Shown one piece after another: positions 2,106 through 19,446 of a stretch of DNA of 64,000 nt. Source of the DNA: Pseudomonas iranensis. GTDB taxonomy: Bacteria > Pseudomonadota > Gammaproteobacteria > Pseudomonadales > Pseudomonadaceae. The stretch is from the NCBI RefSeq assembly GCF_014268585.2, contig NZ_CP077092.1, positions 2,356,001 through 2,420,000 on the forward strand, given 5' to 3'. A program made the translations under genes and the position numbers. The first letter of the stretch is position 1, and every line of letters starts with the position of its first letter. The notes beneath the pieces are model-generated. The model saw nothing but the letters and a program-made list of their open reading frames with translations, was not told the origin of the DNA and searched no databases.

Positions 2106-2405
2106 GTGGGAAAAATCAAGATAGAGCGTCTGACTATCAGCTCTGGATCAAACCTCGCTACCTACGACCGCGAGAAAAGCACTGAGGATCTTTTCTTGGA
2201 GGACACCGACGAGCTCAATGTTTACAAGGTGACTCTTCGAGAAGGTACCTACGGTCACACTGGAGAGGTGCGCGCACAAGGTGAGTTCGAAGCAACTCTA
2301 TCAATCGGCAGCAGCATGCATGGCCAAGTAGTTTCGCAATTGCCGGGCCTTACTCAGGAAGGTGAGCCGGAGACAATCATTCTTACGCTTGAGGCTGAGC
2401 GTTAA
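2106..2405 (+). CDS. hypothetical protein
   Basis: 99 residues from a GTG at 2106, which sits 9 bases after a GGAAGGAG ribosome binding site. The same frame is open far upstream, antisense to the PP-loop gene, but that part is a shadow. The product is hydrophilic with alternating beta-like stretches and no motif I recognise. It is the only plus-strand gene in this part of the left arm and overlaps the stop of the next minus gene by 4 bases. Confidence 0.55.
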   Translation: MGKIKIERLTISSGSNLATYDREKSTEDLFLEDTDELNVYKVTLREGTYGHTGEVRAQGEFEATLSIGSSMHGQVVSQLPGLTQEGEPETIILTLEAER

Positions 2406-2761
2406 GGCTCGATGATTTCGTCGTCAGGCTCTGGCGGATCATCGGCGAGCGACTTCATGCCGGCGGCCTGAATAATGCGCGACACCTTTTCCGTAACAAC
2501 AAAAGGTGTCGTGACACAGCGAAGCATCTTGGCCTGGGTTTCGAAGTCGGCGGCGATCAGGTTCATCAGCAGCAGTTGGTAAACCTCCTGCTGGTTGTTG
2601 ATGCCGTGAGCGGCCATGACGCGCTTGAGGTCGGGCTTGAACACCCCAGCCACTTCAACCGTAAACTTCTCGACGCCCAATGCAGCGTCCTTTGCTGCTG
2701 CCTTCTCGCGCTTTTTCTTCTGCTTGATGGCTTCCTTCGTCGGCTCCGTTACTTCGGCCAT
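2402..2761 (-). CDS. hypothetical phage protein containing one copy of the 41-bp palindromic element
   Basis: 119 residues. A very Lys/Glu-rich N-terminus (about residues 5-26) is followed by a predicted alpha-helical domain and an acidic tail rich in D, E and P. Residues 83-96 (VTTPFVVTEKVSRI) are encoded by copy C of a palindromic element also found at 12261 and 19406. The helical middle (VMAAHGINNQQEVYQLLLMNLI) looks like a small DNA-binding ribbon/helix domain, but this is an impression. It is part of the leftward early series. Confidence 0.6.
   Translation of the reverse strand: MAEVTEPTKEAIKQKKKREKAAAKDAALGVEKFTVEVAGVFKPDLKRVMAAHGINNQQEVYQLLLMNLIAADFETQAKMLRCVTTPFVVTEKVSRIIQAAGMKSLADDPPEPDDEIIEP
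2475..2515 (-). repeat. palindromic element copy C (in-frame V-T-T-P-F...V-S-R)
   Basis: On the minus strand this 41-bp stretch begins GTCACGACACCTTTT and ends AAAAGGTGTCGCGCAT, with 10-bp perfect arms (2481-2490 and 2501-2510) around a 10-base spacer. It has the same length, arm layout and reading phase as copies at 12261-12301 and 19406-19446. It lies inside codons 83-96 of the surrounding gene. Confidence 0.7.
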
Positions 2762-10544: not shown

Positions 10545-11333
10545 CTATCGCGAGTACATCGCCCACCAAAAAACATGTCCAAGGATCGATATCTGCTGCT
10601 CCTGGATCTGCTGGAATGTGTAGTCCTCATCCGGATGCTCGTCACGGTTGAAGCTACGCAGGCGAAGACCGGTAGGGATGCGATAGACCTGCTTCACGCG
10701 AAGCTGGCCGTTGTGGTTTATTGCGTACATCTCGCCGTCGACGATATCGCTCAGGGAGTTTTTCCCCACGTTCACGCCGACGGTGGCGCCGTCGCGCAGC
10801 ACAGGCACCATGCTGTTGCCACCGACCTTCACGCACTTCGCATTGCTGAACTGAACGCCGTTGTGGCGCAGGTCCTTCTTGTTGAAGCGCAAGCGTGAGT
10901 TGGCGCTTTCCTCAATCGCAAACCTGCCAGATCCGGCCGCCAGTTCGACTTCATGAAGGAAGGGGACGTAGACCTCATCGTCATCGAGCGGGGTTTCGTC
11001 GTCCCAAGTCTCGATGCTTCCTAATTTTACGCTTGGCTGTACGCGGTCCTGCTGCACGCTGGCAACAGTGGATAACAGTCGAGAGCTGACCTCGCTTGCG
11101 TCGAAGTTGAGCGCCTTTGCGAGCTTCAGCAGCGCTTCCACATTTAGTGGCACCTTCCCGGTGGCGTATTGGCTGAATGCGCTTTGCCCAGACCATCCGC
11201 ACGCTTCGGCAACGTCCGCCTGCGTCAGGCTGCGCCCGGCAGCTTTTGCAGCTGACTTCCGCTGTTCGTAGATGGCCTTGAGCCTGGCGCTCTCGGCGAC
11301 TTCTTCGGTGGTTAGGGGGCGACGTATTTTCAT
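10545..11333 (-). CDS. CI-like prophage repressor (HTH plus S24 peptidase)
   Basis: 262 residues from the ATG at 11333. The helix-turn-helix lies at about 36-76 (SLTQADVAEACGWSGQSAFSQYATGK). The S24/LexA-type autoprotease domain is complete: Ala133-Gly134 cleavage bond (LAAGSG), Ser174 in GGNSMVP and Lys214 in RVKQVY. It should therefore be cleaved on RecA activation, giving SOS induction. The start lies only a few bases after a possible -10 (TAATAC), so the maintenance transcript may be nearly leaderless, as for lambda PRM. Divergent from cro across the operators at 11348-11415. Confidence 0.9.
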   Translation of the reverse strand: MKIRRPLTTEEVAESARLKAIYEQRKSAAKAAGRSLTQADVAEACGWSGQSAFSQYATGKVPLNVEALLKLAKALNFDASEVSSRLLSTVASVQQDRVQPSVKLGSIETWDDETPLDDDEVYVPFLHEVELAAGSGRFAIEESANSRLRFNKKDLRHNGVQFSNAKCVKVGGNSMVPVLRDGATVGVNVGKNSLSDIVDGEMYAINHNGQLRVKQVYRIPTGLRLRSFNRDEHPDEDYTFQQIQEQQISILGHVFWWAMYSR

Positions 11334-11347
11334 ACGAATAAGAGTAT

Positions 11348-11415
11348 TAGCAGAGCTGATATCCAAGCAAACAGCGCTGCTAGTATTTTGTTGCTGATAA
11401 AAAGCAGCGCTGCTA
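11348..11415. promoter_or_regulatory. three repressor/Cro operators (OR)
   Basis: Three 14-bp sites related to TAGCAGCGCTGCTA: TAGCAGAGCTGATA (11348-11361), AAACAGCGCTGCTA (11369-11382) and AAGCAGCGCTGCTA (11402-11415). Centres are 21 and 33 bp apart, i.e. two and three helical turns, which suits cooperative dimers on one DNA face. The same motif recurs at the leftward promoter (8446-8481). Confidence 0.8.
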
Positions 11416-11419
11416 CTAT
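11391..11419 (+). promoter_or_regulatory. rightward early promoter (PR)
   Basis: TTGCTG (-35, 11391-11396) and TACTAT (-10, 11414-11419) with a 17-bp spacer that contains one operator. It reads into cro, which starts 31 bases after the -10. Confidence 0.75.
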
Positions 11420-11449
11420 CCATGGCAGATATCAAGCCGTGGAAATTCC

Positions 11450-12221: not shown

Positions 12222-13073
12222 ATGCAGAGCCAGCCAAATTCCAGCAATACCCCTAACAATGTCGCGACACGTTTTAACAAATCGCAAAACGTGTCGCGCA
12301 CCTCATCAGTAATTCCTTTCGACTTCGATGGTGGCGCCATCCGCGTTATCACCGACGGGCTCGGCGATCCGTGGTTCGTTGCCCGTGACGTAGCCGACGC
12401 CCTGGGTTATGCAAAGCCAGAGAACGCTATCTCCCGTCACTGCAAGGCCGCGACCACTACCCCGAAACAGGGTGGTGGATTCATGACGGTTATTCCTGAG
12501 CGCGATGTCTACCGACTGGTGATGCGCTCCAAGCTTGTCGGCGCCGAGCGCTTCGAAGAATGGGTGGTTGGCGAGGTGCTGCCAAGCATTCGCAAAACCG
12601 GGAAGTTCGAAGCCTCCAGCCCTAGCAGCTCGAAGGTTGTCGGGGAATTGGCGCTAATGGAGTGCTATACGCGCCTCCTAAAGCCGTCGCCCTCAAGCCA
12701 GGTGATGATGCTGGCGAAGATCGCCACCAACAACGGTCTGGAGTCGAGCTTCCTGCCGGCCTACGCGATTGATGCCGCGCCAGATGCCTCAGGCGGCAGC
12801 TCGATGCCAACCAAGGCCATAACCGCGCTGATCAAAGATCACTGTATCGCCAGTACCGCACGCACTTTCAACATTGCACTGGAAGCTCACGGCTTTCTCA
12901 AAGTCCTTCAGCGCAAAAACTCCAAACAAGAGATGGTCGACTTCTGGTCGGTGACTGACAAGGGGCTGGCCTACGGCAAGAACCTCACCAGCCCTCAATG
13001 CCCCCGCGAAACACAGCCTCACTGGTACGTCGATCGCTTCCTCGAACTGGCCAAACTGGTCGGGAAGGCCTGA
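12222..13073 (+). CDS. Bro-N domain phage antirepressor-like protein
   Basis: 283 residues. A Bro-N domain occupies about 28-130 (FDFDGGAIRVITDGLGDPWFVARDVADALGY, ERDVYRLVMRSKL, FEEWVVGEVLPSIRKTG in parts). A KilA/Ant-type C-terminal DNA-binding half follows (MLAKIATNNG..., TARTFNIALEAHGFL, WSVTDKGLAYGKN). Such proteins act as antirepressors or transcription regulators. Residues 14-27 (VATRFNKSQNVSRT) are encoded by copy A of the palindromic element. It is transcribed rightward, one base before the replication initiator gene. Confidence 0.8.
   Translation: MQSQPNSSNTPNNVATRFNKSQNVSRTSSVIPFDFDGGAIRVITDGLGDPWFVARDVADALGYAKPENAISRHCKAATTTPKQGGGFMTVIPERDVYRLVMRSKLVGAERFEEWVVGEVLPSIRKTGKFEASSPSSSKVVGELALMECYTRLLKPSPSSQVMMLAKIATNNGLESSFLPAYAIDAAPDASGGSSMPTKAITALIKDHCIASTARTFNIALEAHGFLKVLQRKNSKQEMVDFWSVTDKGLAYGKNLTSPQCPRETQPHWYVDRFLELAKLVGKA
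12261..12301 (+). repeat. palindromic element copy A (in-frame V-A-T-R-F...V-S-R)
   Basis: Starts GTCGCGACACGTTTT and ends AAAACGTGTCGCGCA; 12-bp perfect arms at 12264-12275 and 12286-12297 enclose a 10-base spacer. It shares length, arm sequence (ACACsTTTT/AAAAsGTGT) and codon phase with copies at 2475-2515 and 19406-19446. It lies within codons 14-27 of the Bro-N gene, close to its start. Confidence 0.75.
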
Positions 13074-18570: not shown

Positions 18571-18908
18571 TGGACAGATGCGCAATCAACTTTATCGCCC
18601 GCCACTGGTGGAGACGCGCCGAGGTGTGGGTGATCGCACTGTTACTAGTCGCCGGTGGATCGATCCTTGGCTACCAGGCCGGCGTCTGGTCCGCCAGCAG
18701 TGAGCACACAAAGCAGCTCACCGAAGTTCGCCGCGCTTATGACGCTGCACTGGGCAAGCGCGATGTCCGACTGAACAGTTTGGCCGAGAAGACTCAGGAC
18801 GCAGCAGTGAAGGTGCAAGAGGCCTCGCACTCAGTCGTCCAGGCCGCTGACACCGCGAGCAAGGCGGCAGAGAAGGTCAACGAAGCCGTCGAACGGCAGA
18901 CGCCATGA
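18570..18908 (+). CDS. single-helix membrane protein with coiled coil, lysis cassette
   Basis: 112 residues. Basic N-terminus, one transmembrane helix (about 20-40, VWVIALLLVAGGSILGYQAGV) and an Ala/Val/Lys-rich coiled coil likely in the periplasm. Start coincides with the last base of the previous stop. The layout is like an i-spanin or an accessory lysis protein; the true Rz-like gene follows immediately. Function uncertain. Confidence 0.6.
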   Translation: MDRCAINFIARHWWRRAEVWVIALLLVAGGSILGYQAGVWSASSEHTKQLTEVRRAYDAALGKRDVRLNSLAEKTQDAAVKVQEASHSVVQAADTASKAAEKVNEAVERQTP

Positions 18909-19405
18909 ACGCCTTGCTGAAGTTGGTCCCTGTATGGTTGTGGGTGGTGCTGGCAGCGCTCGCAGCCGTCGGTTATCTGTCACTGCGACTGGATAGCGTG
19001 AAGGACGATCGAGCAGCAATTACCGCCCAGTTCGATACCGCCAACGCCCGGGTGGATTCGCTCACCAACACGCTCCGCATCCAGCGCGAGATCACCAATG
19101 ACATCAATCGAGTCTCCGACGATGCGAAAGCCAAAACTGAGCATGTATCGGCTGCCGTTGTTGTTGCTGATAACCGGGCTCGCAGCCTGCAGCAGCAAAT
19201 CACCGACCTCCTCGCCAAGCGAAAGTCTTGTGCTGCCGAGGTTGCCAGCGGAAGCCAGGCAAGAGCCGACCTTACCGTTTTGCTCGCCGACCTGCGTAGA
19301 AGCGCTGACGAAGAAGCGGGAAGACTGGCAGAAGCGCTTGATCGAAGCCGAATAGCCGGCTTTGCGTGTGAGGCTGCATACGCGGCAGCGCAGAATAACA
19401 GGTAG
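18905..19405 (+). CDS. Rz-like inner-membrane spanin (DUF2514 type)
   Basis: 166 residues. N-terminal signal anchor (LVPVWLWVVLAALAAVGYLSL, about 7-27) followed by a periplasmic coiled coil with Ala/Asp/Arg heptads and two Cys. This is the Rz/DUF2514 i-spanin layout, which with an outer-membrane lipoprotein fuses the two membranes in the last step of lysis. An Rz1-type gene is nested in the +1 frame (19122-19355), a diagnostic arrangement. Palindromic element copy B begins in frame directly after its TAG stop. Confidence 0.8.
   Translation: MNALLKLVPVWLWVVLAALAAVGYLSLRLDSVKDDRAAITAQFDTANARVDSLTNTLRIQREITNDINRVSDDAKAKTEHVSAAVVVADNRARSLQQQITDLLAKRKSCAAEVASGSQARADLTVLLADLRRSADEEAGRLAEALDRSRIAGFACEAAYAAAQNNR
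19122..19355 (+). CDS. Rz1-like outer-membrane lipoprotein spanin nested in Rz
   Basis: 77 residues from the ATG at 19122 (an ATG at 19098 is the alternative). Basic N-terminus, hydrophobic LPLLLLITGLAAC ending in a lipobox with the lipidated Cys, then a Ser/Pro-rich region, typical of Rz1 o-spanins. Entirely inside the Rz gene in another frame, as in lambda. It ends in charged helix ALTKKREDWQKRLIEAE, longer than lambda Rz1's tail. Confidence 0.8.
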   Translation: MRKPKLSMYRLPLLLLITGLAACSSKSPTSSPSESLVLPRLPAEARQEPTLPFCSPTCVEALTKKREDWQKRLIEAE

Positions 19406-19446
19406 GTCGCGACACGTTTCGCGAGAGTGCAAATTGTGTCGCGACA
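19406..19446 (+). repeat. palindromic element copy B (V-A-T-R-F...V-S-R, after the Rz stop)
   Basis: GTCGCGACAC (19406-19415) and GTGTCGCGAC (19436-19445) are perfect 10-bp arms. Read in the Rz frame it would encode VATRFARVQIVSRH followed by TAA, matching the peptide of copy A, but it lies immediately after the Rz TAG. Same length and phase as the copies at 2475 and 12261. Confidence 0.75.

Follow-up and report, generated by a model that had tools for sequence, protein, structure and literature searches.

A near-palindromic element of 40 base pairs (bp) occurs three times in a prophage of Pseudomonas iranensis, within a window of 64,000 nucleotides (NZ_CP077092.1, positions 2,356,001 to 2,420,000 of the forward strand), and recurs in other phages of the genus. 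We propose that it is a two-half-site operator of a predicted ribbon-helix-helix protein, encoded by the very gene that holds one of the copies, copy B; we put the probability of this reading at about 0.45. It is preferred because the element has the symmetry of a protein site, because the widest gene family among the phages examined is DNA-binding-like and itself bears the site, and because a test on named phages worked.

Copy A (12261..12300, plus strand), a class I element, has the layout GTCGCGACACGTTTT-N10-AAAACGTGTCGCG and covers codons 14-27, in phase 0, of an open reading frame (ORF) of 283 residues (12222..13073, plus strand). Leader codons 1-13 are followed by the element and then by a Bro-N domain at residues 40-121 (Pfam PF02498, 6.8e-20); the PHROG match of this ORF is anti-repressor Ant. 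The core pattern matched once in the window and in none of 100 dinucleotide shuffles, and copy A is therefore not a chance occurrence. Copy B (2476..2515, minus strand), whose arms are not fully symmetric, covers codons 83-96, again in phase 0, of a 119-residue ORF (2402..2761, minus strand). Copy C (19406..19445, plus strand) starts right after the TAG stop of an Rz-like spanin gene (18905..19405, plus strand; PHROG_312, 3.3e-26; DUF2514). All three copies measure 40 bp between the outer arm ends, and their core sequences are unlike one another. When the genome (6,073,514 bases) was searched with 24 fixed bases and up to 3 mismatches, copies A, B and C were the sole matches, all within 17 kb, and the reversed-pattern control gave 0. 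The single box GTGTCGCGACAC, with at most 1 mismatch, was found at 14 places in the genome versus 43 for its reversed control; since the box alone is not enriched, the paired arrangement is what matters.

An earlier note on this DNA had described copy A as 41 bp long (12261..12301), with copies of the same length and phase at 2475 and 19406. Its position, arms and codons 14-27 for copy A were correct, and the length, measured between the outer arm ends, was 40 bp. The other copies do have the same length, copy B starting at 2476. A and B do share a phase; C does not, as it lies outside the Rz-like gene and agrees only in beginning at the codon border after the stop. According to the note, its reading would fall if the segments were ordinary parts of conserved protein domains. 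This is not the case: the element precedes Bro-N, and 8 of the 15 PHROG profiles that match the ORF start at residues 28-35, after the element. The remaining profiles start at residues 8-21 (three) or 26 (one) or cover the rear part only (three).

A motif search beyond the window, which the note had proposed as a check, revealed a wider distribution. The consensus core, CG[C/T]G[A/C]CAC-N2-TT-N12-AA-N2-GTG[T/G]C[G/A]CG, matched in 78 of 298 genomes of the genus, with zero matches for reversed controls. A pattern fixed in the inner CACGTTTT-N10-AAAACGTG alone matched in 55 of the 298 and exposed a second allele, CGCGCCACG...CGTGGCGCG. A class-wide sample comprised 369 genomes, among them 1 other genome of the window genome's family and 3 of its order; a similar pattern with at most 1 mismatch matched the window's own genome and none of the 368 others. 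The hosts of matching phages and the named homologues were Pseudomonas, and we infer that the genus in question is Pseudomonas. Matches from the two viral scans are lower bounds. Plasmids gave no match to a class II query, and Rfam gave none at element sites; three Rfam matches elsewhere fell below the families' own cut-offs. Literature searches with the exact arm strings led to unrelated papers, and searches by theme found no description of the element in what were, for most papers, a title and the opening of an abstract. If the operator reading holds, the element would be an undescribed phage control point.

Three sites recur: B near the 3' end of the predicted ribbon-helix-helix gene, A in antirepressor-type genes, and C past the stop of a lysis-type gene. 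In most of 28 whole or nearly whole records B came first, A lay about 10 kb further on and C about 6-8 kb beyond A; some records were without a recognisable B or one of the other sites.

We collected 483 distinct elements, 40 bp long in 462 cases and 41 bp in 21. The arms and TT/AA are conserved and the central ten bases vary. By half-site they fell into class I (GCGACAC, 170), class II (GCGCCAC, 150), class III (GTGACAC, 49), the B-type ACGACAC/GCGACAC (106, retaining one arm mismatch) and mixed elements, which were rare (8 of 483 here; 1 of 157 in one set). Class I half-site centres lie 32 bp apart, about three helical turns. Most scan patterns behind this collection favoured symmetric elements, and a separate scan blind to arm positions was therefore made; with the allele positions left blind, the outer halves were identical in 28 of 30 loci. 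Among 225 arm pairs at spacings of 6-44 bases, 156 stood at N20, 18 at N8 (2-3 mismatches) and 17 at N21, the rest being scattered; the loci in this count were partly picked at fixed spacing, and the viral scan was relied on instead.

The half-sites are symmetric and co-vary, the two arms changing together at two positions. In 196 distinct A-type elements the arms agreed clearly beyond expectation at positions 5/36 and 7/34 only; agreement was no more than expected at 11, 12 and 15 and somewhat more at 18 and 19. Among 142 other elements, position 7 exceeded expectation (1.00 vs 0.50), and in C-type elements positions 12, 18 and 19 fell below it while 17 and 20 were somewhat above. A protein site in DNA is favoured over an RNA stem because the arms co-vary at two positions without pairing inside. 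An RNA hairpin in transcripts, acting where genes start and end in translation control, processing or antitermination, would suit the inverted arms and the placing of A near gene starts and C beside stop codons. It is nevertheless highly improbable: the inner positions show no consistent pairing in either type, most arm positions are invariant rather than compensating, with compensatory changes at two positions per arm only, the B-type elements keep their mismatch, and Rfam is silent at the sites.

Class III has TCA in place of TCG in its right arm, a synonymous change when read in the A frame; the constraint therefore acts on the nucleic acid and not on the peptide. Read in frame, A encodes the peptide VATRF....NVSR and B a similar one. 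Rickettsia palindromic elements are selfish palindromic inserts that enter coding genes in frame, and the near-fixed length and in-frame peptide of the present element would fit an insert of that kind. Such an origin is barely credible here: the same positions recur in distant phages, and near-identical copies that include the core were not observed at unrelated loci, prophage surroundings having been checked for part of the genomic loci. Since the central ten bases vary, the copies do not come from one master.

The A-type elements (n=207) are preceded by a leader of about 12-13 codons and end at residue 26-27, and frame 0 stays open for at least 60 codons from the element in 170 of them. In nine A-type ORFs hand-picked for variety, a Pfam scan found Rha in four (starting at residues 28, 29, 29 and 43), KilA-N in two (31 and 35), HNH in one (54) and T5orf172 in two (39 and 38, one at and one below the Pfam cut-off). 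Given where the element ends, different domains thus begin soon after one common leader. A single upstream cluster was joined to 17 downstream clusters. Ungapped identity was 0.52 adjoining the element vs 0.28 beyond (without cluster 5), and the leader itself has diverged. In one group, cluster 9 (n=12; e.g. L049 220, L006 1499, L051 4727), the gene that comes next adjoins leader and element directly, as though no antirepressor cassette were present.

At the C-type elements (n=108) a stop triplet adjoins the element in at least 85. Their upstream ends form several clusters, some of which read by eye as holin or Rz ends, and 66 upstream-downstream pairs were seen. In 583 pairs of elements with a common upstream cluster, identity was about 0.65 before the element, 0.75 within it and 0.24-0.33 after it; pairs with a common downstream cluster showed a weak contrast, 0.39 down to 0.29. 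Similarity that ends at the element, as at a mosaic boundary, is present, clear for C-type elements with a common upstream cluster and weaker for A-type elements and common downstream clusters. An E-type element lies beside genes that read like excisionase or integrase genes.

These patterns also fit a recombination joint, passive or dedicated (Erf/Rad52-like annealing recombinases or a site-specific enzyme), as the main function. The many C-type pairings, the fall in identity past the element, and the single A-type upstream cluster set in frame with Rha, KilA-N, HNH, T5orf172 and Bro-N would all be expected of one. We consider it quite improbable, as a plain homology joint could do without matching half-sites and without a conserved dyad around a free core, the A, B and C cores differ within one phage, the A-type leader has diverged, and the contrast is weak for C-type pairs with a common downstream cluster.

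Elements of two classes were sometimes found together. Phages with sites of both class II and class I (L160, 19107-19146 and 27226-27265; G326) are possible recent recombinants. In G120 (L618, 8364 and 8917) elements of class I and class II lie 550 bases apart, and no gene of the copy B family was detected in that stretch.

No single window protein was common to all site-bearing phages in the first twelve records (one of them actinophage-like), and a set of 28 records was therefore examined. There the ORF family of the B gene was the widest, found in 14 of the 15 records of class I, all 11 of class II and one of the two mixed ones, with the CI family narrowly behind (14, 10 and 1). The B-gene family was present in 139 of the 298 genomes of the genus and comprised 3056 proteins among 7996 scored candidates. 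Its members are strongly diverged, and most retain the element-coding stretch near the 3' end; the strictly defined element was present in 63 of 84 family genes and in 0 of 7 of subtype S2.

Pfam found nothing on the window's 119-residue protein, and a sequence search of the PDB found no convincing relative; one distant homologue passes the Pfam cut-off for RepB-RCR_reg. An AlphaFold model (mean predicted local distance difference test score 78.6, predicted template modelling score 0.43) gave weak NikR/CopG-like matches over residues 28-78, NikR first and CopG among the others. The ribbon-helix-helix fold is thus a prediction from weak matches, and with the spread of the family it makes this protein the candidate binder.

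For the test on named phages, 24 records (3 + 21) were found by protein similarity to the B-gene family, and six, none previously known from the element, were examined. Perfect 14/14 elements numbered two in phiPSA1, one in PseuP_222 (first 50 kb), one in PseuP_224, one in PfDIW6, four in Medea1 and none in PotUPM1; reversed strings gave 0 and Markov means were 0 to 0.1. Five of the six phages thus had perfect elements, four of them outside the family gene, the sole copy of PfDIW6 being within it. The sites of phiPSA1 and Medea1 lie within the family gene, in an annotated antirepressor or Rha gene about 30-40 bases from its start, and at genes ahead of terminase; the last is weaker in phiPSA1 (13/14), and the fourth element of Medea1 is near cI. 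Among records known beforehand, SC8 was without a 14/14 element and BR133a had one without a family gene.

The phages phiAH14a and phiAH14b have been described as helper and satellite (PMC4936722). In the satellite phiAH14b, a perfect class II element lies 6 bases past the p18 stop codon, and p08 has a weaker one close to its end. Six AH14b-like loci retain the p18-side element, class II in five and class I in L081. In P4-like Pseudomonas satellites the element was kept at one place, in surroundings 75-85% identical (L567 10504-10543; L230 6010; L312 7462; L201, L207, L212 1494; L081 1545).

The class of the other sites was compared with the strand subtype of the family protein. With QELRHT and ELRHKVRPG the other sites were class II (19 pure, 2 mixed, 0 pure I), and with RSLIVSK and ELRHR.RLG class I (11 vs 1, the exception phage also having a QELRHT gene). 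The FTVEV subtype went with class I in 18 cases, III in 1 and II in 2; ELRLRVRPG with class II in 9 and I in 3, with 1 mixed and 1 without; R.H with class I in 8 and II in 3, with 1 mixed; and the remaining subtypes with class II in 3 and III in 1. A control limits what this comparison can show: 13 of 57 other ORF families track class more closely than the B-gene family does (22 of 25), and class therefore reflects lineage at least as much as function. Class agreement was accordingly dropped as proof for the B-gene protein. Our confidence is held below one half because the partner is a candidate and because class tracks lineage.

The site could instead belong to another partner, either a protein of the host genus or a further phage regulator, with the B gene merely holding a copy. 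Several observations favour this explanation: the element was seen in one genus only, it turns up in a helper-dependent satellite and in records where no full-length family member was detected, S6 phages have B of one class and A/C of another, and the CI family is nearly as widespread. We judge it somewhat unlikely, given that the B-gene family is, narrowly, the widest found and that the genomes G103 and G152 both combine a class I locus with a class II locus; class is therefore not set by one host factor of single specificity. CI itself is an unlikely binder. Its ORF, of the S24 repressor type (10545..11435, minus strand), adjoins repeats of another sequence: two CAGCGCTGCT repeats lie between cI and cro (11370-11425), are unrelated to the element and are likely CI operators.

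Under the operator reading, each half-site would be occupied by one dimer, the pair forming a tetramer as in NikR. In the prophage, protein bound at B, A and C would repress leftward, antirepressor and late transcription. Repression might act as an internal roadblock, a mode proposed from the location of the sites: B and A lie within genes, and C has a stop codon on one side and the following gene on the other. As each site would have to stay while its neighbours change, the element could be the main sequence common to unrelated modules and thus the place where they recombine. A satellite with the same site may read the state of its helper through it. The fullest version of this scheme, a phage-wide circuit of three sites (own gene, antirepressor gene, start of the late genes) that has three or more specificities, a dedicated in-frame swap joint for antirepressor and lysis modules and a satellite port to the helper, we regard as unlikely in its entirety.

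Three possibilities had been raised in the earlier note. A protein-binding site within coding DNA is, judged from the sequences, the best supported, with the partner shifted to the predicted ribbon-helix-helix protein of the B gene. The RNA hairpin target is disfavoured by the narrow agreement between arms, and the frame-keeping mobile or recombination unit survives as a pattern, an in-frame mosaic joint, and is disfavoured as a transposing unit, the core being variable. If the operator reading is true, a common group of Pseudomonas prophages would have a second, CI-independent control circuit and the widespread B-gene family a function. It would also account for module joints at set places with the reading frame kept, and would give a specific starting point for studying how a satellite senses its helper.

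Elsewhere in the window, a PAPS-reductase-like gene (PF01507; 1074-2024, minus strand) lies at the left edge of the prophage. In a phage record of apparently high GC content (guanine plus cytosine; L072 3758-3835, G331), three GTGTCGCGACACC boxes surround a promoter-like stretch beside a small ORF. They were considered as relatives of the element and set aside: their spacings differ, and the adjoining ORF reads by eye as ribbon-helix-helix-like but Pfam was empty. They are perhaps an unrelated operator and are recorded as a lead only.

Among known systems, the NikR site has the form GTATGA-N16-TCATAC. The present element resembles NikR and CopG/CopB operators in its two inverted half-sites and unconserved spacer, and NikR best matches the B-gene model. 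It differs in half-site sequence, phage location and intragenic position; the protein has no evident metal-binding domain, and a Pfam-level sequence relation exists for one distant homologue only. P2 and P4, as helper and satellite, have a common dyad site (Ogr/delta sites), as do helper and satellite here; the phiAH14b element, however, sits just past a stop codon, with no activator or promoter mapped there. Boundary sequences of mosaic phage modules are likewise short and conserved at the joints of unrelated modules, whereas the present element is symmetric and protein-site-like, its half-sites come in allelic classes, and some of its copies are coding and in frame. Stoperators of the mycobacteriophage immunity repressor (PMC9283540) are reported as many genome-wide sites of one phage regulator that act on transcription elongation. 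The likeness lies in several sites of one regulator over a phage genome, a link that here would run through the candidate binder. Stoperators are asymmetric and bound by a monomeric two-domain repressor, whereas the present element is a near-palindromic double half-site of 40 bp, present mostly in two or three copies in a phage, and its probable tie is to a predicted ribbon-helix-helix protein rather than to an S24 CI repressor.
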